Under the pieces are notes generated by a model that was not told the origin of the DNA, ran no database searches, and saw only the letters and a list, made by a program, of their open reading frames with translations. 64,000 nt of DNA, taken from NCBI RefSeq assembly GCF_000429545.1, contig NZ_AUCB01000007.1, positions 1 through 64,000 on the forward strand, read 5' to 3'. Origin of the DNA: Arenibacter certesii DSM 19833. GTDB taxonomy: Bacteria > Bacteroidota > Bacteroidia > Flavobacteriales > Flavobacteriaceae. The position numbers were made by a program, and so were the translations under genes. Numbering within the stretch: the first letter of the stretch is position 1; each line of letters opens with the position of its first letter. Shown here one piece after another: positions 4,701-22,425 of the stretch.

Positions 4701-4762
4701 TGTGCCATCGTCACCGACGAAAACAATATGGAGGTGAAAAGAAATAAAATATTGATTTTCAT
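1748..4762 (-). CDS. SusC/RagA family TonB-dependent outer membrane transporter
   Basis: This is the outer membrane beta-barrel partner of the SusD-like lipoprotein, importing a bound nutrient with energy from TonB. The 1004-residue protein has a signal peptide (about 1-20) and a carboxypeptidase-regulatory-like domain (about 24-100). A TonB-box-like VIVLGFGKQ precedes the plug (about 105-235, with the SusC signature YVIDGLPL), and a long C-terminal barrel ends in a hydrophobic strand. Length is normal for the family. It is the first gene of a two-gene operon closed by the terminator at 321-350. No sigma/anti-sigma pair or hybrid sensor lies beside it in this window. Confidence 0.95.
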   Translation of the reverse strand: MKINILFLFTSILFSSVTMAQEKDISGVVKDGEGIPLLGVNIIIENTQSGTQTDFDGNYSIKAAPGNVLVYSFVGFKPRKITVGQESTINVTMTVDNELDEVIVLGFGKQSKRKVTDNIASISSDEINQIPVASMQGALTGKAAGVQIQQINGKVEGGVKMRIRGISTISSSQEPLYVIDGLPLINDDESVSEAPMNPLISLNPNDIESIQILKDASSAAIYGARGTNGVVLITTKQGKLGKTKISVNTATGWSEATNKVDWLNAEQYVELFTEASANSYGADDLWLTEQGGYFDDMANGLDWRTGEVDTDWQDLALVKGYVQDHGISVSGGNEKTLFYISGGYNNTEGIVRGNTLERYSYRGNIDHRVSDRFRVGLNSSLSKTHVKRLGTDNSFSTPLQAIAQSPLSPPYLSDGIVPNNESTIYYNFLMQQYNGSWNVNIFRAIMNTYAEYEIIPGLRFKSEIGYDNNSQLDEYFAGSLTESASTNGYADATSVQADKYNLNNYFTYNREFIGNYDLEVVAGMSFEESSRKSQYVAGTGYPSDDLQTVDSASEITAGSTTRTKYNFLSYFSRATFSILDKYLLKGSIRYDGSSRFGASNRYGLFPAASVGWIMSEEEFIKASEVVSLLKFRASYGVTGNAGIDNFASLGLFRGAAYNKTSALNPYQLPNKDLKWERTTQFDVGLDFGFFNNKLTGEIDYYIKNTNDLLLNEPLPGTSGWSSITRNVGSLENSGFEFVLNTKNIVQENLSWTSSLNLSTLKNEVTSLPKGDIISGRNLVREGETISSFYVVEYAGVDPDNGDALFYTNTLDANGNRDRTKTSDYSQAERVIAGSPYPTFMAGFTNNISAYNFDFSFTFQGEWGASIYNEGGKFQSGNARYEDNQTLDQMNRWQNPGDITMVPQARMYSTNGQQASTRYLEKSDFVRLRNLSLGYTLPKDITQKFSVDRVRIYFTGVNLLTFTDYSGYDPESTYDNYGNSNIQKGVAFYSAPPAKTYTIGLNIDL

Positions 4763-4861
4763 ACAGTTATATTTTAGTTGATGTTATAATAAATTCCGTT
4801 GCTTTATATTATTTACGGCATAATTGTGGTGCGTTCCAGAATTAACAACGTTTAAAATTAC

Positions 4862-4884
4862 GTTAATTTTAAGTTAAAATTAAC
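4862..4884. repeat. AT-rich perfect inverted repeat between susC and the peptidase gene
   Basis: GTTAATTTT (4862-4870) and AAAATTAAC (4876-4884) form a perfect 9-bp stem with a 5-nt loop. It lies just beyond the stop of the S9 peptidase and about 100 bp upstream of susC. It could be a weak terminator for the peptidase or an operator for susC; the sequence alone does not decide. Confidence 0.4.
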
Positions 4885-4897
4885 TTTTGAAATATAT

Positions 4898-6886
4898 TTA
4901 TTTTAAATACTTTGAGAACCATTGTAGATAACGTTCATAGCGGTCCTTAATAAACGAGGGTTTTTGTATCCCATGAGATTCTCCTGGGTACACTACCAAT
5001 TGGGTCTCTCTACCCAATCTTTTCATTGCTTGGTACATTTGTTCTGAATTGAGGATTGGCACATTCCAGTCGTCACTACCTCCTATCCATAACGTTGGGG
5101 TAGTAATATTAGCGACGTCATTAAAGGGGGAAATTCTTTCCCAGGCTTCGGCATTTTCCCAAGGCAATCCCAATTCTATTTCCCAAGTCAGCTGATAGTG
5201 GTCGTGACCATAATTCGCCCTATATAGCGCTTCGCTTGCGCCTGAAATAGCAGCTTTAAAACGGTTACTCTTAGTAATTAAGTAATTAGTGAGAATACCT
5301 CCATAAGACCAGCCCCCTACCCCTAAGCGATTAGGATCTGTATAACCTTGCTCTATTATATAATCTAATCCTGCCAATACATCCTCCACATCCTTATTTC
5401 CCCAATCGGCAAAAAGCGCCTGAGAAAAAGCTTGTCCATAACCAGAAGACCCTCTGGGATTAATTAACAAGGTAACATATCCGTTAGCGGCAAAAAGTTG
5501 GGCGTTATTATTAAATTCAAATTCGTACTGACTTACTGGCCCTCCATGTAACCAAAGTATTAGCGGGTATTTTTTTTGGGCATCAAAACCTACTGGCTTC
5601 ACTACAAATCCTTCTATCGGGGTACCATCTTTACTCTTAAAGTTAATGTTCTCTACCCTTGGCATTTGAAGGTTTTCCAAATAGGCACCATTTACGGTTG
5701 TCAATTGTTTTAAATTATTTTTTTGATAGGTATAAATTTCATTGGGATGGTTCACTTTCCCCAGCAAAGGAACTACTAAGGATCCATTTACATCATAGTC
5801 CCCTATACTAAATTCGCCCTTAACAGTACGTTTAAATCCCTTTCCCGTTACATCAATGGACGCAATGATACTCGTACCCTGTTCTTCCAATAGGAAATAA
5901 ATTGATTTGCCATCCATTGAAAATTTCGGCTTACTAATATTCCTGTCTATTTCATCTCCCAGAACTCTAGCCTCTCTCCCAGATATTCCTACCATCGCTA
6001 ATTTTTGAGTGGCGTACCACATGGCACTCCCATCGGTAATTGTGGTAAAAGCAATAGTTTTTCCATCCGGACTCCACACTGGATTTTTATCGGCGTTAGG
6101 ATTAGTGGTTAACTGCTTTAAGGATGTATTTTTGGTTGGATTATCAGTAGAAACCAACCAAATATCTGTATTGGAGTTTCCATCCGGATTTTCCGTCCTA
6201 TTGCTTTCGAAGACTATGGTTTTACTATCCGGGTGCCATGCAGGGTTTACATCGTCATAATCACCAAATGTTATCTGCACAGCTGTGGAATCTCCTGGCA
6301 CATAAGTGTACAAATGTGTTCTTTCGTTATTTAAATACCCCACATAATCCCTTTTAAATTGCAGACGATCCACCACAATAGGTTTTGCCTTTTTATCATC
6401 TTCTTTGTCCTCCGTCAACTCTTCCGGACTAGGGTCCTTTAAACTTAACAATAACTTTTGCCCATTGGGTGCCCATTCGTAGCCTTTTACTCCCTGTTTA
6501 ATTTTGGTTAATTGTTGCGCATCACCACCCAATCTATTTAAAGCATATACTTGGGTCTTTTCCTCATGTTTTGTTCCCAAAAATGAAAGATATTTATTAT
6601 CGGGACTCCATCTAGGCTCCGATGCAGAATAGAACTCCTTGGATGTCATAGGGATTGCCTCTCCTCCAGCAGTTGGGACCATCCAAAGTTGACTTTGGGA
6701 TTTGTCTTTTTTTAGATTTAATTCAGACGTAACAAAAGCTACCCAATTCCCATCGGGACTAATTTGGGGATTGCTTACTGATTTTAGCTCCAACAACACC
6801 TCAATCTTGAGTTTTTTATCGGTATTTTGGGCAAATAACCCTGCAGCAATGGAAAAGCATAAAATGAATATGAGTTTTTTAATCAT
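4898..6886 (-). CDS. S9 family prolyl oligopeptidase-type peptidase, secreted
   Basis: This is a serine peptidase of the prolyl-oligopeptidase/acylaminoacyl-peptidase group, which cleaves short peptides. The 662-residue protein has a signal peptide ending near AGLFAQ. A beta-propeller of PD40/WD40-like repeats follows (SPDGNW, SPDNKY, SPDGKT; about 35-400), then an alpha/beta-hydrolase domain (about 420-662). The catalytic triad is visible: Ser527 in GGWSYGG, Asp605 or Asp606 in GGSDDWNVP, and His638 in GESHG. It is probably periplasmic. It is transcribed in the same direction as susCD, 135 bp upstream, so a link to peptide uptake is possible but not shown. Confidence 0.92.
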   Translation of the reverse strand: MIKKLIFILCFSIAAGLFAQNTDKKLKIEVLLELKSVSNPQISPDGNWVAFVTSELNLKKDKSQSQLWMVPTAGGEAIPMTSKEFYSASEPRWSPDNKYLSFLGTKHEEKTQVYALNRLGGDAQQLTKIKQGVKGYEWAPNGQKLLLSLKDPSPEELTEDKEDDKKAKPIVVDRLQFKRDYVGYLNNERTHLYTYVPGDSTAVQITFGDYDDVNPAWHPDSKTIVFESNRTENPDGNSNTDIWLVSTDNPTKNTSLKQLTTNPNADKNPVWSPDGKTIAFTTITDGSAMWYATQKLAMVGISGREARVLGDEIDRNISKPKFSMDGKSIYFLLEEQGTSIIASIDVTGKGFKRTVKGEFSIGDYDVNGSLVVPLLGKVNHPNEIYTYQKNNLKQLTTVNGAYLENLQMPRVENINFKSKDGTPIEGFVVKPVGFDAQKKYPLILWLHGGPVSQYEFEFNNNAQLFAANGYVTLLINPRGSSGYGQAFSQALFADWGNKDVEDVLAGLDYIIEQGYTDPNRLGVGGWSYGGILTNYLITKSNRFKAAISGASEALYRANYGHDHYQLTWEIELGLPWENAEAWERISPFNDVANITTPTLWIGGSDDWNVPILNSEQMYQAMKRLGRETQLVVYPGESHGIQKPSFIKDRYERYLQWFSKYLK

Positions 6887-7342
6887 AATAAAAGGTTTAT
6901 AAGTTGGCTATCTGGTAGTCTGTTAGGTTGTAGATAATATTTTTACCTATTTAACAACTTCTTAAAGTTATAATAAAAAATGGATTGCGATATGTATCTA
7001 TTTCTGATTTGTTACGAAATAATATCATTAAATCCAACTCACTCTTTTAAAGAGTATAATCACATAGCTATTGACAACATTTCAGAAAAAACTCAGGCCA
7101 GCAAAATAGGTACAACTGAAGGAGAGTATGAAGCCGTTTTCTATTGAAACATAGTAAGGAAATAGATATAAAAGGTGTTTGCAAAAATTGAATGACTCCA
7201 GTTTTCATAAAAAGAAAGGCTTTTATGAATCACAGCCCTGCCAATTGGGTCAATTCCAAATAAAAATGATATTTTTATCGATTGTAAAAATTGCTTTAGG
7301 CAAAGAAAGAATTAATATAAATTATAATTTACAACCTTATCC
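6887..7342. other. Divergent intergenic region, 456 bp
   Basis: This AT-rich region separates the divergently transcribed S9 peptidase and DUF1080 lipoprotein genes and must hold both promoters. I found no full TTG-N17/23-TAnnTTTG promoter, no hairpin and no convincing small gene in it. Confidence 0.5.
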
Positions 7343-8191
7343 ATGAAAAACAAATTTCACCATTCCGTTCCTGCACTTTCCTTAATTTTTGTGCTATCCC
7401 TCTTTCTACAAAGTTGCGGTACCTCCTCTAATTTAAAGTGGGAGCAAATGTACAACGGGAAGGATCTTAGCAATTGGAAGATTAAGATTAGAAACCATGA
7501 ATTAGGTGAAAATTTCGCCAATACCTTTAGAGTAGAAGAAGGTAACATACAGGTACGCTACGATGGTTACGATAACTATGATGAGCAATTTGGACATCTA
7601 TTTTATGAAAAACCATTTTCTTCTTACCTAATAGGGGTTGAATACCGTTTTGTTGGCGACCAAGTGAAGGGCGGTCCAGGATGGGCCTATAGAAATAGTG
7701 GCATAATGATTCACGGACAAGAGCCGGAAGAAATGACTGTAGACCAGGATTTCCCTAATTCTATTGAAGTACAACTTTTGGGCGGAAACGGTAAGAGCGA
7801 GCGCTCCAATGCTAACCTTTGTACTCCCGGAACTCAATATGAAAAGGACGGTAAGGTAATTAAACAGCACTGTACCAATTCTAATTCTAAAACCTTCCAC
7901 GGAGACCAATGGGTACGCGTAGAAGTTTTGGTTTTGAACGATTCCTTAATAATACATTACGCTAATGGCGAAGAGGTAATGCGCTACAACAAACCCCAAT
8001 TAGACCCTGTAGACGGGAATGAGAGAGGAACCTTTTTAACTGGTGGAACCATTTCTTTACAGAGTGAAAGTCATCCTATTGACTTCAGAAAAGTAGAAAT
8101 TGTTAATTTGGAAAAAGTTGCAGACGATCCAAAAAAGCTACAGCAAGCTATTGATAAGTTAATGGCTGAAAAACGCATGCCACAACAATAG
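7343..8191 (+). CDS. DUF1080 (3-keto-disaccharide hydrolase-like) lipoprotein
   Basis: The 282-residue protein begins with a lipoprotein signal (LSLFLQSC, cysteine near residue 25). It continues with the family's signature start, MYNGKDLSNWKIK, and a concanavalin-like fold containing SGIMIHG, SIEVQLLGG and ISLQSESHPIDFRKVEI. Pfam DUF1080 proteins are now described as 3-keto-disaccharide hydrolase-domain proteins and often act in sugar breakdown in Bacteroidota and Planctomycetes. The substrate here is unknown. The gene stands alone, with a hairpin downstream at 8272-8312. Confidence 0.85.
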   Translation: MKNKFHHSVPALSLIFVLSLFLQSCGTSSNLKWEQMYNGKDLSNWKIKIRNHELGENFANTFRVEEGNIQVRYDGYDNYDEQFGHLFYEKPFSSYLIGVEYRFVGDQVKGGPGWAYRNSGIMIHGQEPEEMTVDQDFPNSIEVQLLGGNGKSERSNANLCTPGTQYEKDGKVIKQHCTNSNSKTFHGDQWVRVEVLVLNDSLIIHYANGEEVMRYNKPQLDPVDGNERGTFLTGGTISLQSESHPIDFRKVEIVNLEKVADDPKKLQQAIDKLMAEKRMPQQ

Positions 8192-11558: not shown

Positions 11559-12407
11559 TTAGTCCATATCGTGCAATGCCAAAATAGGTACGTCCGAGCT
11601 ATAACTTACTTCCTTAATTAGCGGTTTGGTAAAAATAGTCTCTAGAAAACCATGTTTTCTATTAACAAAAGCAAGCATATTACTTCCTCTTCTAGTCATA
11701 AAACTTATGATTCCTGCCGGTATTTTATCTCCTTCTTCAAAACAGAAAGCATGTTCAACTTCTTTAAAGATAGTACTTAATAAGTTTTTATTCTCTAACT
11801 GCGTTTTATTCAATCCAGATTCCGATCCAATATGGAGAACCTGCACCACCGTACTGTGTAGTTTTACAATGTCTAGAAGATATTGCAACTCCCTACGTTT
11901 AAAACTGGTTTTAAATTCCGTAGGAAAAACTATTTCTTTTGGTGCAATAAACTTAACTTTTTCTGGTACTGCTATTACAGGACACAAGGTTGTCTTCTCC
12001 ATTACCTCAACCGTATTAGATCCGAAAAGGGCCCTAGCAGCACCGCTCTTGCCTTTAGTCCCCATCACCACAATATCTAAATCCTTTTTATCTATTGCCT
12101 GTTTAACGCCCTCTAAAAGGGAATTAAAAATAGAGATAATATGAAAAGTATGGGCTATATTCTCAGATGCTCTTTGGAAATGTTGTTGCAATTTATGGAG
12201 TCCCTCTTCTGATTTCTCCTTAGCTGCCTCATAGGCCAATTCACCTGGCTCGGGAACCATCATTTTATCCAGGCTATAGCCACTAATTCCAAAAACATTT
12301 AATAAATAAAAATCGCAAGGTTGATCCTTATAAAGTTGAACGGCATAATTAATCGCGTTTAATGCGTTTTGGGAAAAATCCGTAGGTAATAAAACGTGTA
12401 TTGGCAT
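11559..12407 (-). CDS. Universal stress protein, two-domain (USP 1)
   Basis: The 282-residue protein has tandem UspA-like domains. It begins LLPTDFSQNALNA, and the first domain carries the full ATP-binding motif G-2x-G-9x-G(S/T): GTKG, then nine residues, then GS. The second half (about 150-282) keeps the fold but lacks the motif and ends in VPILALHD. USPs bind ATP or other adenine nucleotides and support survival under starvation or oxygen limitation. It has its own operator plus -7 promoter at 12433-12475. It is the last of four consecutive paralogues on this strand. Confidence 0.93.
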   Translation of the reverse strand: MPIHVLLPTDFSQNALNAINYAVQLYKDQPCDFYLLNVFGISGYSLDKMMVPEPGELAYEAAKEKSEEGLHKLQQHFQRASENIAHTFHIISIFNSLLEGVKQAIDKKDLDIVVMGTKGKSGAARALFGSNTVEVMEKTTLCPVIAVPEKVKFIAPKEIVFPTEFKTSFKRRELQYLLDIVKLHSTVVQVLHIGSESGLNKTQLENKNLLSTIFKEVEHAFCFEEGDKIPAGIISFMTRRGSNMLAFVNRKHGFLETIFTKPLIKEVSYSSDVPILALHDMD

Positions 12408-12432: not shown

Positions 12433-12475
12433 CTAAATTAACCGACAAATTCTGGTCTACGTATGACAAAGATCA
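12433..12475 (-). promoter_or_regulatory. CRP/FNR-like operator plus -7 box before usp 1
   Basis: On the minus strand the operator TGATCTTTGTCA (12475-12464) is followed after 23 bp by TAATTTAG (12440-12433), one mismatch from the Bacteroidota -7 consensus TAnnTTTG. The start codon is 25 nt further on. No -33 TTG is present at the normal distance, which fits activator-dependent initiation. The same layout recurs at three other genes. Confidence 0.7.
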
Positions 12476-12622
12476 GTTATGCCCAATAATTTAAGGAAGC
12501 AATAGTCCTATATAATACGTGTCGCTTTATACGAAACCATCACCGTATTTAAAACGAGTAGAAGAAAAAGATGAGAAATTATAGATAGCTGATAGCTTGG
12601 GTTAATTAAAATAAAATAACAG

Positions 12623-13459
12623 TTACCCTGGGATTACCATAAAGGGTATACGTACATATAGTCCCACATTCTTAATAACTGGCTCAATAAAGAGTCGTTC
12701 CAAAAAAGTATGTTTGTTTTGGATCATAACCAAGAGGTTGATTTTTCTATCTACTTGAAAATTATTTATGCCTTCAATTACTCCCTGATTTGGTAAATTG
12801 TGGAACAAATGGTTGGTATTCTTCAGTAATTCCTCCAGTATCCCTTTATTCATTTGTTGTATTTCAGATATTTCATAGCTTGTGGAAATATGCAATACCC
12901 TTATCTGGGACAAATGGTTTGACTGTAATTGCAACAACATTTTAAACTGATCCTTGCGATAGGAAACCTCATAATCTGTTGGAAACAAAATTTCTTTGGG
13001 TGCCGTATATTCGTATTCGGAGGGTACCGCAATTATGGGAAAGCTAGCTCTTTTTATTAATTGAATAGTATTGGTACCCAAAAGTATTTCCTGTGCTCCT
13101 GTTGCGCCTTGGGTTCCCATAATTACAAGGTCTATATTCTCCTTAGATACCGTCTGCACTATTTCATCTACCAGCATACTATAAGCAGAGTGAATTACAA
13201 AACGGTGATTGGTATTAGTAAACTCGCTTTCTAGTTGTTTCTTCAACTTTTCTAAACCAGTCATAGACCTCATCTGATACTTATCTCCCAGCCCAATCTG
13301 CCCTGGGCTATAAAGTAAATATTCCGCCTTATAAACTGCTGGAGAATAAGTGTTTAACAAATAAAACGTACACTCTTTATTTTTAAACAATTGCAGGGCA
13401 TACATTATGGCATTATATGCATTTTCCGAAAAATCAGTAGGTAATAAAATACGTTTCAT
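12623..13459 (-). CDS. Universal stress protein, two-domain (USP 2)
   Basis: The 278-residue tandem UspA protein begins MKRILLPTDFSENAYNA. The first domain has an intact ATP motif (GTQG, nine residues, GT); the second (about 150-278) is degenerate. It starts only 15 bp after the stop of USP 3, so the two are one transcript. A 215-bp gap with its own promoter separates it from USP 1 downstream. It is a cytoplasmic stress protein; the ligand is inferred from the motif. Confidence 0.92.
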   Translation of the reverse strand: MKRILLPTDFSENAYNAIMYALQLFKNKECTFYLLNTYSPAVYKAEYLLYSPGQIGLGDKYQMRSMTGLEKLKKQLESEFTNTNHRFVIHSAYSMLVDEIVQTVSKENIDLVIMGTQGATGAQEILLGTNTIQLIKRASFPIIAVPSEYEYTAPKEILFPTDYEVSYRKDQFKMLLQLQSNHLSQIRVLHISTSYEISEIQQMNKGILEELLKNTNHLFHNLPNQGVIEGINNFQVDRKINLLVMIQNKHTFLERLFIEPVIKNVGLYVRIPFMVIPG

Positions 13460-13474
13460 TGTTGCCCCTTTAAA

Positions 13475-14320
13475 TTATCTGGATACATTTTGAAGTACCA
13501 TAAATGGAATTTTAATATGTAGCCCTAACCTATCTATTGTAGATTGATATAACATATCTTCCATAAAGGAATGCCTAGAATTAACCAAAACTAACATATT
13601 AATAGCGTGATGCTCTATGTGTTTAGTGATGGCGAGCGTTTTGTCCTTCTCCAAAGTGGTCCCAAAGGTAAGCTTGGGCTTGCGCAAGCAATTCTTTAAG
13701 AACTCCTTATTATCTTGCTGCCTCCAAGATAGGTTGGTAATAGGATCTATATATAGTAAATGCATGGTAGAGCGAAAAGATCCCGTCATATCACAGAGCA
13801 GTTTTAATTCTCTTCTTTTGTTTGGAACCATATAATTTGTAGGAAAGAGAATTTCTTTTGGAGGATGGTATTCATACCCCTCCGGAATAGCAAGTACTGG
13901 GCAATGAACATATTTTAAAAGATGCAGGGTGTTGCTCCCAAATGTAAGCTCCCTATCATTGGTAGCCCCTCTTGTACCCATAACCACGATATCAATATTC
14001 TCCTGATTTACCAGATCGTTCACTTCATCTACCAAGTCGCCAAAAACTGCAATCGATTTTACCTTGTGATTCGGATTAGGGGAAAAATCCTTTAAATTTT
14101 TCAGCACTTTTTTTAGTGATTTCTGTGTTTTCTGCAAGACAACTTCTCTTAACTCTTCTACGTGGGCAGAGTCCATCTCTGCAGCTTGCCTATACACCTC
14201 ATCACCATAGGCATGTACAATTAAAAAATCACTTTTTTCATACTTAAATACCTGACATGCATATTTTAATGCGTTATAAGCATTATCTGAAAAATCTGTG
14301 GGCACCAAAACTTTTCTCAT
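13475..14320 (-). CDS. Universal stress protein, two-domain (USP 3)
   Basis: The 281-residue tandem UspA protein starts MRKVLVPTDFSDNAYNA, with a complete ATP-binding motif (GTRG, nine residues, GS) near residue 115. The C-terminal half lacks the motif. It is co-transcribed with USP 2. I found no copy of the shared operator in the 101 bp upstream, so it is either read through from USP 4 or regulated differently. Confidence 0.92.
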   Translation of the reverse strand: MRKVLVPTDFSDNAYNALKYACQVFKYEKSDFLIVHAYGDEVYRQAAEMDSAHVEELREVVLQKTQKSLKKVLKNLKDFSPNPNHKVKSIAVFGDLVDEVNDLVNQENIDIVVMGTRGATNDRELTFGSNTLHLLKYVHCPVLAIPEGYEYHPPKEILFPTNYMVPNKRRELKLLCDMTGSFRSTMHLLYIDPITNLSWRQQDNKEFLKNCLRKPKLTFGTTLEKDKTLAITKHIEHHAINMLVLVNSRHSFMEDMLYQSTIDRLGLHIKIPFMVLQNVSR

Positions 14321-14421
14321 AGGAATTATAGATTATCTTTTATTATACGTTCTCTGCTATCAGCATGAAACTACTGTAGTAAGGAACTTTTCTTTTAATT
14401 GCACCACTAACCCATTCTACT

Positions 14422-15324
14422 TTAATGTGCTAATTGGGATGGCCTACTTAACGCTGGCCAGCGCATATTGGAGGGCAGCTTTTCATGAAGCACCAGGAAG
14501 GGGAGTTTTATATGATAACTTATCTCTTCAACCGCTGGCTTAAATAAAATTCTTTGAAGGAAATTTAAATTCTTTGCCACCATGGCAATCATATCAATCT
14601 CCTTTGTCTCTGCAAAAGATTCTATTGCCGTTTCTAATTTAGAACCAGTAAGATAGTAAAAATCATGCTCTAAATCTTTAAAGTAGTCGGCTAGAAACTC
14701 TTTATTGGTCAATTGCTCCTCGCTTAATGGGTCTTTATTTTTTGAGAAATTCACTATGCGCAAGGCAGACTTGTTAATTTGTGCTATTCCTAATAAGTTT
14801 TCCAACACGTTTATCTCATAACCTAGATGGTAATCGGTTGGAAAGGCAATTTCTTTTAGCGTACTGTAGCATGCCTTTTCGGGAACCGCCAACAGGGAAC
14901 ATTTTACCTTTGTAATAACATCACTAGTATTGGTCCCTATAGCCACCTCATTTATTCCCGTAATTCCTTTGCACCCCATAACAATAAGGTCTATATTCCT
15001 ATTTATCACCTCTCGTTTAATTGCATCCACAAAATAATCGTGAATCGCAATGGGCACATAGGTATGATTCCTATTGGGAAACATCGCCCCTATTTTTTTT
15101 ACTAGGCTCCTTAATTGTTCACGACTATCCTCTAATGCCCCCTCATTTGCACGGGTTTCGGAAGGTATCTTTGAAGTTTTATTAACCGTATTTGTATAGG
15201 TAGACAAAGGATTAACATGTAGAATATAAAAGGTACATCTGAACTCTTGAAACAGCTTAACACTATATTTCAACGCATTAAAGCAATTTTCGGAAAAATC
15301 CGTTGCTACTAAAATGTTCTTCAT
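14422..15324 (-). CDS. Universal stress protein, two-domain (USP 4)
   Basis: The 300-residue tandem UspA protein begins MKNILVATDFSENCFNA and has an ATP motif GCKG, nine residues, GT. The C-terminus carries about 18 extra residues after the usual LPFLVLHE end, with no recognisable function. It is the first USP after the response regulator gene and has its own composite promoter at 15350-15392, including a perfect -7 box. It probably heads the transcript running into USP 3 and USP 2. Confidence 0.92.
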   Translation of the reverse strand: MKNILVATDFSENCFNALKYSVKLFQEFRCTFYILHVNPLSTYTNTVNKTSKIPSETRANEGALEDSREQLRSLVKKIGAMFPNRNHTYVPIAIHDYFVDAIKREVINRNIDLIVMGCKGITGINEVAIGTNTSDVITKVKCSLLAVPEKACYSTLKEIAFPTDYHLGYEINVLENLLGIAQINKSALRIVNFSKNKDPLSEEQLTNKEFLADYFKDLEHDFYYLTGSKLETAIESFAETKEIDMIAMVAKNLNFLQRILFKPAVEEISYHIKLPFLVLHEKLPSNMRWPALSRPSQLAH

Positions 15325-15349
15325 TTCTATTTGATTTTGCTATACTTTT

Positions 15350-15392
15350 CAAAAGTAAGTTGCAAATACCGCAAACTAAATGATTAAAGTCA
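15350..15392 (-). promoter_or_regulatory. CRP/FNR-like operator plus perfect -7 box before usp 4
   Basis: The operator core TGATTAAAGTCA, extended to ATGATTAAAGTCAT (15380-15393, plus-strand reading), lies 23 bp from TACTTTTG (15357-15350 on the minus strand), a perfect TAnnTTTG box. The start codon is 25 nt downstream, the same distance as at usp 1. The operator centre falls about 40 bp before the predicted start of transcription, where a class II activator would bind. Confidence 0.75.
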
Positions 15393-15459
15393 TGTACTAA
15401 GTTTAAACCGCGGTAAAATAAAAACATTTTAGAATTGAAAACCCATCAACCGAAAGCAG

Positions 15460-16512
15460 TTAATAGACTCTACTTAGCCCTTCCATATCCAAGATCTGGA
15501 TATTTCTATCCTCTATTTGGATCAACCCTTCTTTTTTAAAGCTAGACAAGGTCCTGATTAGAGTCTCCGTTGCCATGCCAGCAACACTAGCTAGATCGCT
15601 ACGTAGAATATGCAATCTCCCTTGAGGATCTTTTTCCAGTTTGCTGGCAAATCGTAGAATGGTTGTTGCAGTCTTTCTTCTAACGGACCCGTATGCCATT
15701 TCTAATAATTGTTCATTGGTCTCAGTAAGGTTTTCATTTAATAACGCCAGCAGCTCCATTACCAATTCTGGATTTTCTTGGAGCACCTCTTTAAATTTTT
15801 CCTTGGCTATCCCAATTAATCTTACCTCTTCCATAGCAGTAGCAGATTCTTGATAAGGAAGATTTTTGGTAAAGCAGGAAAAGCCAAAAAAATCATCGGC
15901 CTTATAAATTGCCGTGATCAATTCCTTACCCCACTCATCAAGTTTATGGGTCTTTACTACCCCGCTACCTACTAAATATATTAGATTGGAATTACTACCT
16001 TCATTATATATCACTTCTCCTAGCCTAAATTCATATAATCGACCTTGCTTCGCAATATAGCTTTTAAGTTGATCTATAGTTCGTATCCCAAGACCAGTAT
16101 TAGTTGGCTTTGAATTAGTAAGGGCCCTACTCTCTTTTAAAATTGTCATTCTTGCGAGTCTACTTTTAATAGCTCCAAGGAGCTCAGCCTCCGTAAAGGG
16201 TTTAGCAATATAATCATCGGCTCCGAGTTCCATACCCTTGCGTATATCCTCTTTTTCTGTCTTAGCAGATAAAAATATAAACGGTATCTGATTGGTCACC
16301 TTCTCTTGGGATAATGATTCTAGCACTCCATAACCGTCTAGTTCTGGCATCATAATATCACAAATGATAATATCGGGCAAGTGTTTCTTCGCTAGCCGAA
16401 CCCCACTATTTCCATTGGATGCAGTACATACTTGGAAATCGGCCAACTCTAAAATTTCGGCTGTATTCTCCCGCAATATAGGATCGTCTTCTATAATCAA
16501 CACTTGTTTCAT
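15460..16512 (-). CDS. Response regulator fused to a CRP/FNR-type transcription factor
   Basis: The 350-residue protein combines three domains. A receiver domain (1-120) has Asp52 as phospho-acceptor and Lys104 in YIAKPF. A cyclic-nucleotide-binding-type beta-barrel follows (about 145-255), then a CRP-type winged helix (about 260-345, RSDLASVAGMATETLIRTL). The recognition helix keeps the Glu and Arg that read the TGA core in CRP and FNR (ETxxR pattern). No cysteine cluster for an FNR-type iron-sulfur centre is seen. It lies 63 bp after the PAS kinase gene, so the two are a likely two-component pair. It is the best candidate to bind the four TGAT-N4-GTCA sites of this island. Confidence 0.9.
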   Translation of the reverse strand: MKQVLIIEDDPILRENTAEILELADFQVCTASNGNSGVRLAKKHLPDIIICDIMMPELDGYGVLESLSQEKVTNQIPFIFLSAKTEKEDIRKGMELGADDYIAKPFTEAELLGAIKSRLARMTILKESRALTNSKPTNTGLGIRTIDQLKSYIAKQGRLYEFRLGEVIYNEGSNSNLIYLVGSGVVKTHKLDEWGKELITAIYKADDFFGFSCFTKNLPYQESATAMEEVRLIGIAKEKFKEVLQENPELVMELLALLNENLTETNEQLLEMAYGSVRRKTATTILRFASKLEKDPQGRLHILRSDLASVAGMATETLIRTLSSFKKEGLIQIEDRNIQILDMEGLSRVY

Positions 16513-16575
16513 ATGTAGTAGTATTTAGATTAGCAAAAGTTATTTGTGGAACACTTGGTTTAGACATTTTATCCT

Positions 16576-17802
16576 TTATAAGGTACCAAAAGGCAGCACC
16601 ACAGAAAAAACACTCCCTTTCCCTATAATGCTGGAAAAGGATATATTTCCCCCAACATTCTCTACATGTTCTTTTACAATATTCAATCCAATTCCAGAAC
16701 CTTGGATGAGCAATGCGTTTTCTGCTCTAAAATACCGTTTAAAAATATGCTTCCTGCTCTTTTCTGGTATACCGATCCCTTGATCAATTATATGAAAGCC
16801 AATCTCATCTGCCCTCAATTCCACCTTAATATCTATATCCGTATTTTCTGATGAATACTTTATAGCATTGTGTAATAAATTGGTAAGCACCAAAGAAAGT
16901 ATTCTTTCATCTTGAATAATTTCTACCTCATCAATGTTTTCAGGGTAATTTATTTTCTGCCCATCCTTTAATTGCATATTGGCATTATAAACCACCTCAT
17001 TAACCACCTTACTTAGCGAGAATTTAGTATAACTATATACTTCTTTCCCCTTTTCCAAACGCTCCAAGGATAAAAAATCATTTAAAATTCCAGTAAGTAA
17101 ATGAACTCCCCCAATTATGGTATTGAGATGTTTCTCTCTTTTTTCTTGCTGATTTTCAAATTTATACTTTCCAACTAAAGTTGCCGAGGTAAGTATACCG
17201 CTCAAAGGAGTTTTAAACTCATGGGAAACTAAAGATAGAAATTCTGTTTTAAGTTCATTCAATTCTCGCTCCTTTTGTAAAGCGCTCTTTATTTTAGACT
17301 CCGCAACTTCCCGCAACTTTATCTCCTTGGTAAGTTTGGCTACCGTTTGCTCCAGTTCTTGGGTACGCGTTTCTATCTTTTGCTGCAGTTGGGCATTTAG
17401 TTCCTTTATCTGTCTTTCTTGTTCCTTTTTTCCGGTAACATCTATAATAAGAGCCATTACATAAGATTCCCCATCTATGCTAAAAGGATTTAAACCTACC
17501 TCAATAGGAAACTGCTCCCCGCTCTTCCGCTTCCCATACAGCGTTCTTCCATGGGCCATCCTTCGTTGGCCGCTACTTTTGCTGAAACTTTCTACATATT
17601 CATTATGAACTTTGTGAAAGCTGTCCGGAATTAATAAATTTAAGTTATTCCCATTAATATCCTTGTCCTCGTATCCGAACATTTCATTGGTGCGATGATT
17701 GGTTGCCATAATTATTCGTTCCTGGTTTATCACCAAAATTCCTTCGGATACCGCTTCGGACAACAGGTTAAAAATTTTCTTGTTTTTTTCAAATCCTCGC
17801 AT
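16576..17802 (-). CDS. PAS-domain sensor histidine kinase
   Basis: The 408-residue protein has no transmembrane segment, so it is a cytoplasmic sensor. It has a PAS domain with PAC tail (about 10-125, ending VMALIIDVTGKK), a coiled coil (125-185) and a HisKA domain with His194 in SHEFKTPL. The HATPase domain shows the N box Asn312 (HNAIKYSS), G1 (DQGIGIP) and G2 (GSGIGLNIV). It resembles FixL-type kinases in layout, but no haem-binding histidine can be confirmed by eye. It is upstream of and probably co-transcribed with the response regulator-CRP gene, its likely phosphotransfer partner. Confidence 0.92.
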   Translation of the reverse strand: MRGFEKNKKIFNLLSEAVSEGILVINQERIIMATNHRTNEMFGYEDKDINGNNLNLLIPDSFHKVHNEYVESFSKSSGQRRMAHGRTLYGKRKSGEQFPIEVGLNPFSIDGESYVMALIIDVTGKKEQERQIKELNAQLQQKIETRTQELEQTVAKLTKEIKLREVAESKIKSALQKERELNELKTEFLSLVSHEFKTPLSGILTSATLVGKYKFENQQEKREKHLNTIIGGVHLLTGILNDFLSLERLEKGKEVYSYTKFSLSKVVNEVVYNANMQLKDGQKINYPENIDEVEIIQDERILSLVLTNLLHNAIKYSSENTDIDIKVELRADEIGFHIIDQGIGIPEKSRKHIFKRYFRAENALLIQGSGIGLNIVKEHVENVGGNISFSSIIGKGSVFSVVLPFGTL

Positions 17803-18151
17803 TTTATAAAGTTACATTAATTTCTTTATTTTTTTAGGGTTACAGCTGCTGTTACAAGTGCTATTCCTAATAATCAGTAGCTTTCGTGGTTTTGACCTTC
17901 CTTTAAAAAACAAAGCCTATTTTATAATCTAAAACGGGGAATATGAATACAATGCACAGATAATTGGAATCATTTTGTATTTTTAAAAGAGATCGGACAA
18001 TCTTCCAAGGCATATAGTGCCTCTATTAGAGAAGTGCAAAGAATTAGACCGTATTAGCGGTTTGCCAATTTGGGAAGTCATCTTACGTAATAAAAAAGTC
18101 AATTTAGGCTTTACGTTAATTATTTAATAAAACATTCTCTAAACTCAAACT
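17803..18151. other. Divergent intergenic region, 349 bp
   Basis: This lies between the PAS kinase (minus) and the TerB-like gene (plus). A TAAAGTTA element at 17807-17814 (minus strand TAACTTTA, one mismatch from TAnnTTTG) lies only a few bases before the kinase ATG and would give a nearly leaderless mRNA. I found no copy of the island operator and no convincing small gene here. Confidence 0.4.
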
Positions 18152-18553
18152 ATGTTACATAACAAGGAAAAAGCAAAGGAGTTTTACCAATGTTTAGGCA
18201 AACTATTCTATTCTATTGCCATGGCCGACAAAAAAGTGATGCCAAAGGAAATAGCCTCATTAAGAAAGGACGTTAAAAAATATTGGTTATCCTCGGATCA
18301 CGAGGTGGACGAGTATGGTACCGATGCCGCTTTTCAAATAGAAATTGTATTTGACTGGTTACATGAACAGGAAGCTGAGGGAGACAAATTTTTTAAAGAA
18401 TTCACAGATTTTTACGATGCACACTCCTCTTTATTTAGTCCTCAAATAAAAAAGCGCATATGGAAAACGGCAGATGATATTGCGTTTTCCTATGCGCATA
18501 AAAACAAATCTGAATTGATCCTTTTAAATAAGCTCAAACTTATGCTCACCTAA
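18152..18553 (+). CDS. TerB-like small helical protein
   Basis: The 133-residue, all-helical soluble protein includes FYSIAMADKKVMPKEIASL near residues 22-40. This matches the DGxV/E pattern seen in TerB and DjlA N-terminal domains, which are thought to bind metal or act as scaffolds in stress responses. It is a single gene, opposite in direction to the neighbouring kinase and USP genes. The family call is by pattern only. Confidence 0.7.
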   Translation: MLHNKEKAKEFYQCLGKLFYSIAMADKKVMPKEIASLRKDVKKYWLSSDHEVDEYGTDAAFQIEIVFDWLHEQEAEGDKFFKEFTDFYDAHSSLFSPQIKKRIWKTADDIAFSYAHKNKSELILLNKLKLMLT

Positions 18554-18596
18554 ATGTAGACCAGAACAGCACCTACCATAAATTAGGAGGAATTTA

Positions 18597-19478
18597 TTAG
18601 ACCTTGTTTGTTGTACTTTCCTGGTCAGCGTAAAGTTTAACTTCGTTATAACTCATTAAGGGTATGGAGATATGTGATTCCATTTTTTTAACTAAACTCT
18701 TATGGAATATGCGTTGAAAGAATCCTTTTTTCTCTTTTCTTTCCAATAAAACCAAAATATCTGCATTAATCTCTTCCGTCAGCTTCCTTAGTTTAGCTTC
18801 GATATCATCAGAAAAAATAAGCTTGAAATCTATGTTTTCATAATCAACTTTCTGTCTCAACATTTCCTTAAACCACTCTAATTGCTGTTCCCCTGCGTAT
18901 TCTTTTTCTGTAGATATATGCACAATTTCTATTTTAGCCTTTAGCAATTGTGCCATAGAAGCCAAGTCTTGAAGGGCTATTATATCGGCTTCCTCAAAAT
19001 CGGTAGCATATAATATGGTATTAATAGATGCTTTTTCCTTACTATTTGGAGCAATCAATAATGGGCAAGTAACCTTGTCCTGAAGATCCTTACCAATATC
19101 CCCTACAAATAACCCTCGTTCCGAATGTTTATCCTTTCTTCCGATTACAATCAGGTCTGCCTTATGCTCTTTGGACTTCTCTAAAATTGCTTTGGTAATA
19201 GAATCAGCCTCAACAACCTCAAAAATAATATTTTTGGGATCAAATTTGGCCCCAATATGTTCCCTACAATAGGCTTCAAGAATTTCCTTTTGTTCTTGGA
19301 TTACATGATACTCTATTTGTTGGATTGGACGGCTAACCGAAACCCTTAAAGGCTCCATACTATGCACGTAAAAAATTACGAGTTTGGCCCCTAATTCAAC
19401 ACTGAGATTATAGACATTTTTTAAAACAGGAACTTCACGCTCCGATCTATCGGTAGCGTAAAAGATAGTATTCATCAT
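18597..19478 (-). CDS. Universal stress protein, two-domain, divergent type (USP 5)
   Basis: The 293-residue tandem UspA protein starts MMNTIFYATDRSEREVPVL. It differs from its five paralogues in that the ATP motif is altered: GRKD replaces G-2x-G, and GD replaces the final G(S/T). It may bind another ligand or none. The C-terminal half is highly charged (LERKEKKGFF) and the gene belongs to a different USP subgroup. Even so, it has the same composite promoter (19498-19540) as USP 1, USP 4 and deoC, so it belongs to the same predicted regulon. Confidence 0.9.
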   Translation of the reverse strand: MMNTIFYATDRSEREVPVLKNVYNLSVELGAKLVIFYVHSMEPLRVSVSRPIQQIEYHVIQEQKEILEAYCREHIGAKFDPKNIIFEVVEADSITKAILEKSKEHKADLIVIGRKDKHSERGLFVGDIGKDLQDKVTCPLLIAPNSKEKASINTILYATDFEEADIIALQDLASMAQLLKAKIEIVHISTEKEYAGEQQLEWFKEMLRQKVDYENIDFKLIFSDDIEAKLRKLTEEINADILVLLERKEKKGFFQRIFHKSLVKKMESHISIPLMSYNEVKLYADQESTTNKV

Positions 19479-19497
19479 AACTATAGTGTTTAATCCT

Positions 19498-19540
19498 TAA
19501 ATATATTGGATTAATATTTAGCGAACAATGATTTTGGTCA
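19498..19540 (-). promoter_or_regulatory. CRP/FNR-like operator plus -7 box before usp 5
   Basis: The operator, extended form ATGATTTTGGTCAT (19528-19541, plus-strand reading), lies 23 bp from TATATTTA (19505-19498 on the minus strand), one mismatch from TAnnTTTG. The start codon of usp 5 is 19 nt further. The plus-strand small gene at 19662 begins 121 bp on the other side and shows no matching -7 box. Confidence 0.65.
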
Positions 19541-19661
19541 TAAAGCATTAAACCAATGTAGTATTAGTTACTTATTAGTGCACTCTATTGTGGAGAAACA
19601 ATTAAAAATATCCTTAATATTTCCAACCAATATATCATAAAAATTCATTAGATTCAGTGCC

Positions 19662-19931
19662 ATGAAAGCAATAGCACAACTTAAAAATCCCTTATCTTCT
19701 TTGGAAGGGGAGACCATTAAAAACGTATTAAGTCCCATTTTTAATATCCAGATATTAGACATCGATCTGGAAAAAGGAAAACTCCTATTTATGTATAACA
19801 GCCGTATGGATTTGGTAACTACAGAAAAAATACTATTGGAAGCAGGTCTTCCTATAATATCTTATTCCATTCCCAATCGCATCCCTATAAACCATAGTGG
19901 GACTGACCCAGACAAAACCAGATTAGCCTAA
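19662..19931 (+). CDS. Small protein resembling an HMA fold without the metal cysteines
   Basis: The 89-residue protein contains IKNVLSPIFNIQILDIDLEKGKLLF, followed by a helix and LPIISYSI, in a beta-alpha-beta order like heavy-metal-associated domains. There is no CxxC, so classical copper binding is unlikely. It is transcribed opposite to its neighbours USP 5 and USP 6 and ends 8 bp before the convergent USP 6 stop. The coding potential looks real because the composition is protein-like and it fills the gap neatly. Function is unknown. Confidence 0.6.
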   Translation: MKAIAQLKNPLSSLEGETIKNVLSPIFNIQILDIDLEKGKLLFMYNSRMDLVTTEKILLEAGLPIISYSIPNRIPINHSGTDPDKTRLA

Positions 19932-19939
19932 GTATATCG

Positions 19940-20785
19940 CTATCGCTCAGTTAATACCAAAAGTGGGATATTGGTATGGAAGCCCATCCTTTTTACTACC
20001 GCCTCTCGGGTAAGTTTTTCGAAAAAACTATGGCTATAATGGATCAACGCAATTATATCAGCTGCGTTGGTTTCAGCGAAATCGGAAATGGTATCAGCTA
20101 CATTGCCTTTAAATTCAACCTTGTGAAAACTATGATCAATTGCCGAAAAATATTTTTCCAGTAGCAACGTATTTGTGGCTTGTAAATCATTGAAGATAAA
20201 TTCCGTTCCAACCTGAAAAATATAAGTTTCCGCTTTCCATATCCTCACCAGTTCCAGCATTGGATTTAATTCTGAAGCCTCAAAATAATTGAGGAAATTA
20301 GTTGGAAAAGCAACACGTTTTAGACGCTGCAGGCTATACTCTTTAGGAACAACGATTATGGGTCTATTCCTTATGGACATTACTACTTTAACCGAATTGC
20401 TACCTACAAACACTTCTTTGGCCCCTGTTGCTCCCGTTGCCCCCATTATAATACATTCTATATGATGGGTGTGGATAGTATCTTTAATGGCATTTAAAAG
20501 ATTATTTGCGATAGAAATTTTTTCGAAAGTATGATTTGGGTTCTTGTGATTTTTCCTTAGATAATCTATGATTTTATCCAGTTTCACCTGCAATTGTTTA
20601 CTCATGGATTCATAGATCACCCCTATCCTTTGTTTACCATTACCCTCAAGTAGATTAGCTATATTTGGTTCATAAGAGTTTAAAACAATAAAATGACAGG
20701 AAAAATCGGCATACAGCTTTAATGCAGTGAACATTGCATTCCAGGCACTTTCTGAAAAATCTGTGGGCAAAAGAATTATTTTCAT
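19940..20785 (-). CDS. Universal stress protein, two-domain (USP 6)
   Basis: The 281-residue tandem UspA protein starts MKIILLPTDFSESAWNA. Its ATP motif is intact (GATG, nine residues, GS), and the second half is degenerate (LIHYSHSFFEKL). It is divergent from deoC. The 285 bp between them hold the deoC composite promoter, but no matching operator is placed for this gene, so its regulation is open. Confidence 0.92.
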   Translation of the reverse strand: MKIILLPTDFSESAWNAMFTALKLYADFSCHFIVLNSYEPNIANLLEGNGKQRIGVIYESMSKQLQVKLDKIIDYLRKNHKNPNHTFEKISIANNLLNAIKDTIHTHHIECIIMGATGATGAKEVFVGSNSVKVVMSIRNRPIIVVPKEYSLQRLKRVAFPTNFLNYFEASELNPMLELVRIWKAETYIFQVGTEFIFNDLQATNTLLLEKYFSAIDHSFHKVEFKGNVADTISDFAETNAADIIALIHYSHSFFEKLTREAVVKRMGFHTNIPLLVLTER

Positions 20786-20992
20786 CGTTTTATTTTTTAT
20801 GGGTTAAACCCCCTAACTTTAAGTGACATTCAAATGGGGTTTAGCATAATTCTGAGTTCCCTTACACCTCAATTATCTACCAGATCAATGTTATATGGAA
20901 TTAAAAAAATCGTCCATTTATTCATTACAAAATAGCTTATTACCACGTTAAAGTTCATGATATTGACCAGTCCTAAATTTCAGATAGATGGT

Positions 20993-21035
20993 TGACTTAT
21001 ATCATATAAATAGATGAAGGAAACACTTAGATTTG
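20993..21035 (+). promoter_or_regulatory. CRP/FNR-like operator plus perfect -7 box before deoC
   Basis: TGACTTATATCA (20993-21004; reverse reading TGATATAAGTCA) is followed after 23 bp by TAGATTTG (21028-21035), a perfect TAnnTTTG. Transcription should begin near 21042, leaving a leader of about 30 nt before the ATG at 21071. This argues against the longer reading frame starting at 21014. Confidence 0.75.
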
Positions 21036-21070: not shown

Positions 21071-21715
21071 ATGCAACTCCAAAAATATATTGACCACACA
21101 CTTTTAAAGGCGACAGCTATCGAGGAAGATATTCTAAAGTTATGCGATGATGCGCTGAAGTTTAATTTCATTGCCGTCTGCATAAATGGTGCTCATATTC
21201 CGTTGGTAAAATCCAAATTAGGTAATTCCTCAATTAAAATAGCTACAGTGATAGGATTTCCTTTAGGGGCTATGTCTACCAAGGCGAAAGTTTTGGAAGC
21301 AACAGATTATATAAATCATGGTGCCGATGAAATAGATATGGTTATTAATATCGGCTGGTTAAAATCAGGAAAATTATTGGAGGTAAGGAACGACATTTTC
21401 GAAGTAAAATCTGCCATAGGCACTAAGATATTAAAGGTAATTATAGAGACCTGCTATTTAACGAAAGAGGAAAAAAAAATAGCTTGCAGATTAGCCGTAG
21501 AAGCCAAGGCCGACTTTGTAAAGACCTCCACTGGTTTTGGTCCTGGCGGGGCTACTTTTGAGGATGTTATTTTATTTAAAAAAACGGTTGAGGATGCTAT
21601 TAAGATAAAAGCTTCTGGAGGCATTAAGGATAAGGCCACAGCTCTAAAATATATTGAACTGGGTGCCTCCAGAATAGGAACCTCCTCTGGGATTACTATG
21701 ATGGCGACTAAATAA
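21071..21715 (+). CDS. deoC: Deoxyribose-phosphate aldolase
   Basis: DeoC splits 2-deoxyribose-5-phosphate into glyceraldehyde-3-phosphate and acetaldehyde, the last step of deoxynucleoside catabolism. From the chosen start the protein has 214 residues and opens MQLQKYIDHTLLK, as is usual for the family. Key residues are Asp89 in EIDMVINIG, the Schiff-base Lys151 in VKTSTGFG and Lys180 in IKASGGIKD. An upstream in-frame ATG at 21014 would add 19 atypical residues and would place the -7 box inside the gene, so it is rejected. deoD follows after 11 bp. Confidence 0.95.
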   Translation: MQLQKYIDHTLLKATAIEEDILKLCDDALKFNFIAVCINGAHIPLVKSKLGNSSIKIATVIGFPLGAMSTKAKVLEATDYINHGADEIDMVINIGWLKSGKLLEVRNDIFEVKSAIGTKILKVIIETCYLTKEEKKIACRLAVEAKADFVKTSTGFGPGGATFEDVILFKKTVEDAIKIKASGGIKDKATALKYIELGASRIGTSSGITMMATK

Positions 21716-21726
21716 AACAAAAAAGA

Positions 21727-22425
21727 ATGAGTTTACACATACATGCAGCGGATGGAGAAATTGCAGAAACAGTATTATTACCAGGAGATCCATTACGCGC
21801 CAAATGGATTGACGAAACCTTTTTAGAAAATCCTTCCTGCTACAATAATATTAGGGGTATGCTTGGATATACAGGCACCTACAAAGGAAAACTCATTTCG
21901 GTTCAGGGAAGGGGTATGGGAGTCCCTTCAGCTATGATCTATTACTATGAATTGATTCACTACTACGGGGCTAAAAATTTAATTAGAGTTGGGACGGCCG
22001 GTGCGCTACAGAAGAAATTACAACTAGGGGATATAGTTTTAGCCATGGCGGCATCCACTATTTCAGCTTTCAATAATAAGATTTTTGCACATTCCCATTT
22101 TGCCCCAATAGCCAGTTTCCAATTGCTACAAAAAGCGGCCAATTACGCGGAAAAAATGAAATTACCTTATCTGGCAGGAAATATACTTACTTCGGATATT
22201 TTCTATAACGACGATCCTGAAGAATACAGAATATGGGCTAAATATGGCGTCCTTTGTGTTGAGATGGAAGCAGCAATCCTATATAGTTTGGCAGCAAAAC
22301 ATCAAATTAATGCGCTGGCCATTCTTACCATATCCGATTCTTTGGTAACTGGTGAAAAATCTACCAGTAAGGAACGGGAATCTACTTTTGCTAATATGAT
22401 AGCGCTAGCCCTTAATATTACTTAA
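21727..22425 (+). CDS. deoD: Purine-nucleoside phosphorylase, DeoD type
   Basis: This enzyme converts purine (deoxy)nucleosides and phosphate to the base and (deoxy)ribose-1-phosphate. The 232-residue protein matches the hexameric bacterial type: the phosphate-binding LLPGDPLRAKW at the start, RVGTAGAL in the middle, EMEAAILYSLA for nucleoside binding and TISDS near the end. It is co-transcribed with deoC. Phosphopentomutase, needed to join the two steps, is not in this window. Linkage to stress genes suggests salvage for carbon and energy. Confidence 0.95.
   Translation: MSLHIHAADGEIAETVLLPGDPLRAKWIDETFLENPSCYNNIRGMLGYTGTYKGKLISVQGRGMGVPSAMIYYYELIHYYGAKNLIRVGTAGALQKKLQLGDIVLAMAASTISAFNNKIFAHSHFAPIASFQLLQKAANYAEKMKLPYLAGNILTSDIFYNDDPEEYRIWAKYGVLCVEMEAAILYSLAAKHQINALAILTISDSLVTGEKSTSKERESTFANMIALALNIT

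Follow-up and report, generated by a model that had tools for sequence, protein, structure and literature searches.

Within a 64,000-nucleotide stretch of Arenibacter certesii DSM 19833 (Flavobacteriaceae; contig NZ_AUCB01000007.1, positions 1 to 64,000; hereafter the window), we examined four copies of a composite promoter, each comprising a Crp/Fnr-type operator and a Bacteroidota -7 box, which lie ahead of three universal stress protein (usp) genes and of a deoC gene. Three of the composites face the reverse strand. Site 1 consists of an operator at 12464-12475 (TGATCTTTGTCA, centred at -41.5) and a box at 12433-12440 (TAATTTAG), and serves the usp gene at 11559-12407 (PF00582). Site 2 (operator 15381-15392, reading TGACTTTAATCA towards the gene; box 15350-15357, TACTTTTG) and site 3 (operator 19529-19540, reading TGACCAAAATCA towards the gene; box 19498-19505, TATATTTA) likewise precede reverse-strand genes matching Pfam Usp, at 14422-15324 and 18597-19478, respectively. 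Site 4 lies on the forward strand (operator 20993-21004, TGACTTATATCA; box 21028-21035, TAGATTTG) ahead of deoC (21071-21715, forward strand, TIGR00126), which is followed on the same strand by a deoD-like gene of the purine-nucleoside phosphorylase type (21727-22425; PF01048, PNP_UDP_1). Since the ATG listed for deoC at 21014 precedes the -7 box, its start was taken as 21071, giving distances from box to start codon of 25, 25, 19 and 35 bases for sites 1 to 4. Reading towards the gene, the box begins exactly 23 bp past the end of the operator at every site, the count running to its initial T; two boxes match TAnnTTTG perfectly (TACTTTTG, TAGATTTG) and two match it at 5 of 6 positions, with one mismatch (TAATTTAG, TATATTTA). 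The positions, spacing and served genes given in the initial annotation were thus all confirmed.

Setting the T of the box at -12 places the operator at -47 to -36, with its centre at -41.5, which upholds the earlier proposal of an activator-dependent class II promoter, as does the strong preference for a 23-bp gap described below. Written as TGAT-N4-GTCA, the operator lies on the reverse strand at sites 1 and 4 and on the forward strand at sites 2 and 3. Relative to the genes its orientation is mixed, with TGAT..GTCA at site 1 and TGAC..ATCA at sites 2 to 4, and TGAY-N4-RTCA is therefore the fairer motif. Flanking positions were read from a logo of 230 deduplicated perfect sites, used for those positions only because many of its loci were fetched by the gap-23 pattern, which biases it to that gap; for the same reason its tally of 230 sites at gap 23 against 23 spread over 14 other gaps is no independent test of spacing. 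The logo has T at -35 in 90% of sites (and in all four window sites), A at -50 in 65%, and A or C at -48 in 43% each. The reported absence of a -33 TTG stands, in softened form, as a T-rich stretch is kept at -33 and -32 (68% and 71% T).

AT-rich sequence yields operator-like and -7-like words readily, and a 23-bp coincidence among them might simply have been picked out by the reader. In line with this possibility, the window excess is modest when two free mismatches are allowed anywhere in the composite (7 matches against 2.66 expected, with 1 of 100 shuffles reaching 7), and at up to two mismatches the signal is drowned in the whole A. certesii genome (226 matches against 192 in the control). 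Stricter patterns behave differently: TGATN4GTCA occurs 6 times in the window against 1.32 expected, a count reached by none of 100 shuffles, and the looser TGAYN4RTCA occurs 8 times against 3.51, reached by 3 of 100. Composites with a box matching at 5 of 6 positions or better number 5, against a mean of 0.04 and a maximum of 1 in 200 sequences simulated with a first-order Markov model; the fifth, at 2286, falls within a 692-aa frame and was taken as chance. Spacing was also assessed by a search in which gaps of 8 to 38 bp (31 values) were allowed. The A. certesii genome (83 contigs, 4.99 Mb) yielded 25 operator-box pairs, of which 12 fell at gap 23 and at most two at any other gap. Seven genomes were searched in this way and five tabulated (A. 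certesii, G103, G134, G198 and G182, leaving out G271 and G306); the gap histogram peaks at 23 in each of the five, the four relatives giving 20/37, 16/33, 18/26 and 19/32, and the pooled count of 85 of 153 pairs corresponds to a binomial probability of about 5e-84 against 31 equal gaps. The peak also recurs at promoters chosen by gene and not by motif. For hemN (surveyed, like deoC, in 30 chosen genomes), a perfect composite was found in 23 of 28 genomes and any other gap at most twice, and usp genes give the same result (below). On these gap histograms we rejected chance, which we regard as scarcely credible.

The exact composite, with zero mismatches, was identified in all 41 sampled genomes of the family, with 346 matches; the reversed 43-bp pattern gave 8, or about 2% as many. 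Across the order it occurs in 7 of 8 genomes (36 matches; reversed control 0), across the remainder of the class in 40 of 49 (138 matches; reversed control 9, both of these controls being counted by hand), and over the whole phylum sample in 162 of 395. Searching the genome and its relatives, as the initial annotation had suggested, therefore returned neither random scatter nor missing conservation at usp and hemN promoters. The highest counts in the 395-genome sample, 28 and 30 perfect composites, belong to G271 and G306, from another class of the phylum (family f47); both encode an FNR-like protein (41-42% identity), neither has a match to the response regulator-Crp fusion, and one site of the pair precedes an NrfH-like cytochrome gene (by eye).

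The genes that follow these composites extend well beyond stress proteins. The 12 perfect sites of the A. certesii genome include ones before hemN, deoC, two usp genes and a cytochrome c gene leading into nosZ, as well as before an MlaE permease gene, a thioredoxin-family gene and a TolC-like gene (by eye). One-mismatch sites add pta, further usp genes (some identified by a usp profile, some by eye), a Dps-like gene (a call below model cut-offs), a site between an FNR-like gene and a P-type ATPase gene, and one (C25:27686-27728) preceding an alternate F1F0-ATPase beta gene (L045:1241-2656; TIGR03305, over cut-off). In ten other genomes of the family, loci were available for 60 of 74 perfect matches and were read for the first downstream gene, selected members being checked by profile and others named by eye. 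These first genes include ccoS, nirK, pta, usp, hsp20, hemN, RIC/ScdA and CBS-domain genes, together with thioredoxin-family, PEP carboxykinase and pyruvate-phosphate dikinase genes. Profiles identified CcoS (TIGR00847), NirK in G206 and G029 (TIGR02376) and Pta in G202 (PRK05632); perfect sites also precede Hsp20 and two usp genes in G234 and, in G103, genes for HPF and pyruvate formate-lyase (the latter a partial frame), and one in G198 precedes a ferritin-like gene (Dps-like by eye). For a NorC-like cytochrome c gene (L204), the NorC model gave no confirmation. Together, these targets are what would be expected of a low-oxygen regulon of the FNR/FixK type. The initial annotation's "small predicted stress regulon" is not supported, since across the family's genomes the same code precedes hemN, ccoS, nirK, the nosZ operon, pta, hpf, hsp20 and many usp genes; as judged from sequence, the four window sites are part of a large family-wide set and not of a small private one.

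This target list also bears on whether the sites might answer to carbon, through a CRP or MalR-like protein. One metagenomic study puts forward the hypothesis that two bins, one of Flavobacteriales and one of Saprospiraceae, have MalR-like Crp/Fnr homologues (PMC8510549), which lends catabolite control some support. Perfect composites also precede PEP carboxykinase and pyruvate-phosphate dikinase genes in G130 and G304, and in E. coli the deoC-deoD operon is a classic example of CRP-cAMP control. Conversely, the identified targets are mostly respiratory, anaerobic or survival genes, and the membership of deoC is poorly conserved. Control by cAMP or carbon was rejected on the target list, and we consider it very improbable.

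Between sites 2 and 3 lie the genes of a candidate regulator and its kinase, both on the reverse strand. The first (15460-16512) encodes a response-regulator receiver fused to a Crp/Fnr protein (hereafter RR-CRP), with Response_reg, cNMP_binding and HTH_Crp_2 domains, the latter two forming an output distinct from the LuxR-type output of FixJ. The second (16576-17802) encodes a PAS histidine kinase whose PAS residues His66 and Arg86 align with the two FixL residues, a proximal His and a distal Arg, involved in binding heme and oxygen. Searching with kinase residues 1-140 retrieved 14 distinct PDB sequences at E 1e-3, of which 13 are DosP, FixL or alike (best E about 2e-13) and one is a multi-sensor kinase. 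This FixL-like heme-PAS signature of the adjacent kinase, absent from the initial annotation, points to oxygen rather than to general stress. A second cassette of a FixL-like kinase, an RR-CRP and usp genes lies elsewhere in the same genome (L058, C21:44500-55000; 3998-7498 of that locus), its kinase having both FixL-type residues and one-mismatch operator-box sites occurring nearby.

The same neighbourhood recurs in 80 named RR-CRP loci (51-76% identity, the best from Arenibacter amylolyticus), which are mutually related and include some species twice. A usp gene lies within 400 bp downstream of the RR-CRP gene in 75 of them, and a kinase adjoins it in 71, with both FixL-type His and Arg present in 44 of the 71; at least three of the nine loci lacking a kinase (L231, L270, L298) start less than 500 bp from the locus end. 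When open reading frames (ORFs) running off the locus end are excluded, 127 of 242 usp genes have a composite at gap 23 whose box matches at 5 of 6 positions or better, 64 of them perfect, and the usp gap histogram shows 129 at gap 23 and at most 5 at any other. Non-usp ORFs carry a composite at 157 of 990 (38 perfect), with 157 at gap 23 and no more than 16 elsewhere. The largest non-usp cluster with composites comprises 32 homologues (representative 48% identical) of a 133-aa protein encoded in the window at 18152-18553 (forward strand), which has no Pfam match; no composite was found ahead of the window copy. Other composite-bearing clusters are HPF/S30AE (21), WG-repeat (12) and YceI (9), and smaller ones are hemN (6, by eye), P-type ATPase (5, by eye) and Hsp20 (4).

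To relate proteins to sites, we compared recognition helices; in FNR/Crp proteins, a Glu and an Arg four residues apart in this helix read TGA. Five proteins of the A. certesii genome match PF13545 above cut-off. An E-x-x-I-R helix is present in an FNR-like protein (C12:61653-62342) and in the two RR-CRPs, and absent from the Crp proteins on C4 and C7. The Glu and Arg are found in 10 of 10 aligned FNR-like proteins and 22 of 22 aligned RR-CRPs, and the Ile before the Arg in all except two RR-CRPs, which have Ser. The best NCBIfam match of the FNR-like protein is Fnr, at 107.9 bits, below the cut-off of 228. E. coli FNR has four cysteine ligands; of these the A. certesii protein keeps the CxxC and the central VCF-type Cys and lacks the third N-terminal Cys. 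Another Cys, of GVFC type, is kept in 10 of 10 aligned FNR-like proteins, and the protein (L046:5654-6346, with orthologues L133-L141) possibly uses a different set of iron-sulphur ligands.

Taking as its basis what is directly observed, namely the sites, their spacing and conservation, the domain make-up, the gene neighbourhood and the recognition-helix match, our preferred reading is that a low-oxygen regulon spans the family and that the four window sites are among its activator-dependent promoters of class II, with RR-CRP as proximate activator at the usp genes and the FNR-like protein sharing the code, and we hold this to be highly probable. A dimer of the Crp/Fnr type would bind (A/C)TGAY-N4-RTCAT centred at -41.5 and recruit RNA polymerase to TAnnTTTG, the -7 box of Bacteroidota, where the accompanying -33 element is weak. 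At the window usp sites this activator would most likely be the adjacent RR-CRP: when oxygen is low, it would dissociate from the heme in the FixL-like PAS kinase, which would phosphorylate the receiver, and the fused Crp/Fnr part would then bind. The FNR-like protein would probably read the same sites in parallel and serve the respiratory half of the regulon, that is, hemN, cbb3 and denitrification genes. Heme and oxygen sensing, phosphotransfer, activation and the assignment of each protein to its sites are what we infer from known families.

Several observations weigh against this reading. Five of the 28 hemN genes show no composite, and among other deoC genes examined only 1 of 12 has one (13 loci were read, L315 being the same gene as L311); deoC-deoD was accordingly rejected as a core member of the regulon. 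Of the 60 perfect-composite operators read, 8 overlap a frame of at least 100 aa, and 3 loci have no downstream frame of at least 50 aa by script, one of which (L219) does have a short frame by eye. The kinase is FixL-like only, as it falls short of the curated NCBIfam FixL model (89.4 bits against a cut-off of 850); 27 of the 71 adjacent kinases lack one or both of the FixL-type residues, with Arg missing or unaligned in 26 and His in 9; and the kinase-regulator operon itself has a composite in just 4 of 71 loci. A third Crp/Fnr protein with a VETVIR helix occurs in G053, G355, G257 and G367 (L341, L333, L343 and L352), and by its helix may be an extra reader of the same operator. Finally, the regulator searches, which covered 60 genomes from the 395-genome sample (the complete family set of 41, the complete order set of 8 and 11 chosen others), left 18 of the 41 family genomes with no RR-CRP match at E 1e-40, in 17 of which 34 of 42-112 candidates were scored, and these 18 hold 113 composites. 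The code overall can thus exist without RR-CRP, which was rejected as its sole regulator; the initial annotation's response regulator-CRP remains the leading candidate reader of the usp sites, and is probably not the only protein acting on the code.

Genome content provides further detail on how the two regulators are distributed. RR-CRP matches were obtained in 23 of the 41 family genomes, which hold a mean of 10.1 composites against 6.3 in those without a match (Mann-Whitney p 0.004, uncorrected for relatedness). When all candidates were scored in G029, G202, G206, G257 and G304, every PF13545 match listed lay in a frame of at most 277 aa, which leaves none of RR-CRP size in these five genomes. 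With a threshold of E 1e-60, the FNR-like protein was matched in 34 of the 41, including all 18 without an RR-CRP match, and by a hand tally none of the 41 lacks both.

This distribution raises the question of whether the FNR-like protein alone drives all composites, the window usp sites included, while RR-CRP reads something else. Besides its presence in every family genome without an RR-CRP match, the FNR-like gene itself is preceded by a perfect composite in G182 (L087) and, in A. certesii, by a copy with gap 22, and hemN-type targets are classic FNR targets. Two genomes speak against it. Searches of G130 and G234 for the FNR-like protein (E 1e-25) and for hemN (E 1e-90) returned nothing, and in each RR-CRP is the sole E-x-x-I-R protein among four PF13545 matches (E 1e-6); they nonetheless keep 3 and 7 perfect composites, respectively, one of the seven in G234 lying in a coding frame. 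Those of G130 precede PEP carboxykinase, DJ-1/PfpI and a 92-aa gene, with one-mismatch composites before usp genes in its RR-CRP locus, and those of G234 include pta (partial frame) and others in addition to the hsp20 and two usp genes named above. The two genomes belong to one genus and so perhaps reflect one event. The enrichment of composites at usp genes beside RR-CRP is a further point against the FNR-like protein acting alone, which we find unlikely. Since composites persist in genomes lacking either regulator, the FNR-like protein and RR-CRP probably share one promoter code. A split of targets between the two was also considered: with 30 loci read for each group (from 32 and 42 matches), usp was the first gene in 6 loci of RR-CRP-only genomes and 2 of FNR-only genomes, counts too few for any claim. 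The RR-CRP-only group is, moreover, mixed, as G053, G355 and G367 hold further Crp/Fnr proteins with the helix Glu and Arg, leaving G130 and G234 as the only strict cases.

Other genes of the window usp cluster complete the picture of the locus. Two more reverse-strand usp genes (13475-14320 and 12623-13459, identified with a usp profile built from the window usp genes) have no composite of their own that we could find, and judging from spacing and strand they are probably transcribed by continuation from the site 2 promoter. Nor was a composite of its own found for the usp gene at 19940-20785 (reverse strand) in the same cluster. An 89-aa protein without a Pfam match is encoded at 19662-19931 (forward strand). 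A short frame resembling it by eye sits downstream of the perfect composite at C25:38324 of the A. certesii genome, near C25 38000 (L021); with this frame in place, the idea of a small RNA at that site was rejected.

The proposed system resembles several known ones in part. Class II promoters of E. coli FNR and CRP have operators centred at -41.5, and the composites share both this centre, relative to the -12 T of the box, and the TGA..TCA operator type; they differ in that the Bacteroidota TAnnTTTG box replaces the -10 element and in that the outer base is asymmetric, with A or C at -48 and T at -35. In common with the rhizobial FixL-FixJ-FixK cascade are a PAS domain with His and distal Arg, a Crp/Fnr output, and targets that, under the shared code, include ccoS and hemN. 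Here, by contrast, the receiver is fused to Crp/Fnr, removing the separate FixJ-to-FixK transcription step, and usp genes are the main neighbouring targets. The mycobacterial DosR/DosS hypoxia (dormancy) regulon likewise combines a heme-type sensor kinase with many usp, Hsp20, HPF-like and CBS-domain targets; its DNA-binding domain and operator are unrelated, and the likeness is confined to gene content. Also comparable are the usp genes of Pseudomonas aeruginosa controlled by Anr, where an FNR-type regulator drives usp under low oxygen, although Anr lacks the fused receiver and the promoter type differs. One may picture a one-step Fix cascade in the Flavobacteriaceae, in which a FixL-like heme-PAS kinase would phosphorylate a receiver-Crp/Fnr protein, and this would activate fermentation genes together with a dormancy set like that of DosR (many usp, HPF, Hsp20) by way of one rigid code, readable from sequence family-wide and shared with a respiratory FNR-like protein; for this more specific picture we see the case as evenly balanced.

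Class II geometry, FNR-type targets and FixL sensing are each already known elsewhere. What is apparently undescribed in the open-access literature is the receiver-Crp/Fnr fusion beside a FixL-like kinase, the survival set centred on usp, and a rigid 23-bp code spanning the family; no description of a Flavobacteriaceae regulon of this kind was found in the open-access PubMed Central literature, subscription journals lying outside the search. Oxygen control in the Flavobacteriaceae is poorly mapped in the literature found, where the nearest paper hypothesises carbon sensing by a Crp/Fnr protein from a Flavobacteriales bin (PMC8510549). Two kinds of regulator acting on one operator would offer a clean case for how two sensors share a promoter. 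Further, the code would allow the low-oxygen regulon in this large marine bacterial group, denitrification genes included, to be read mostly from sequence.

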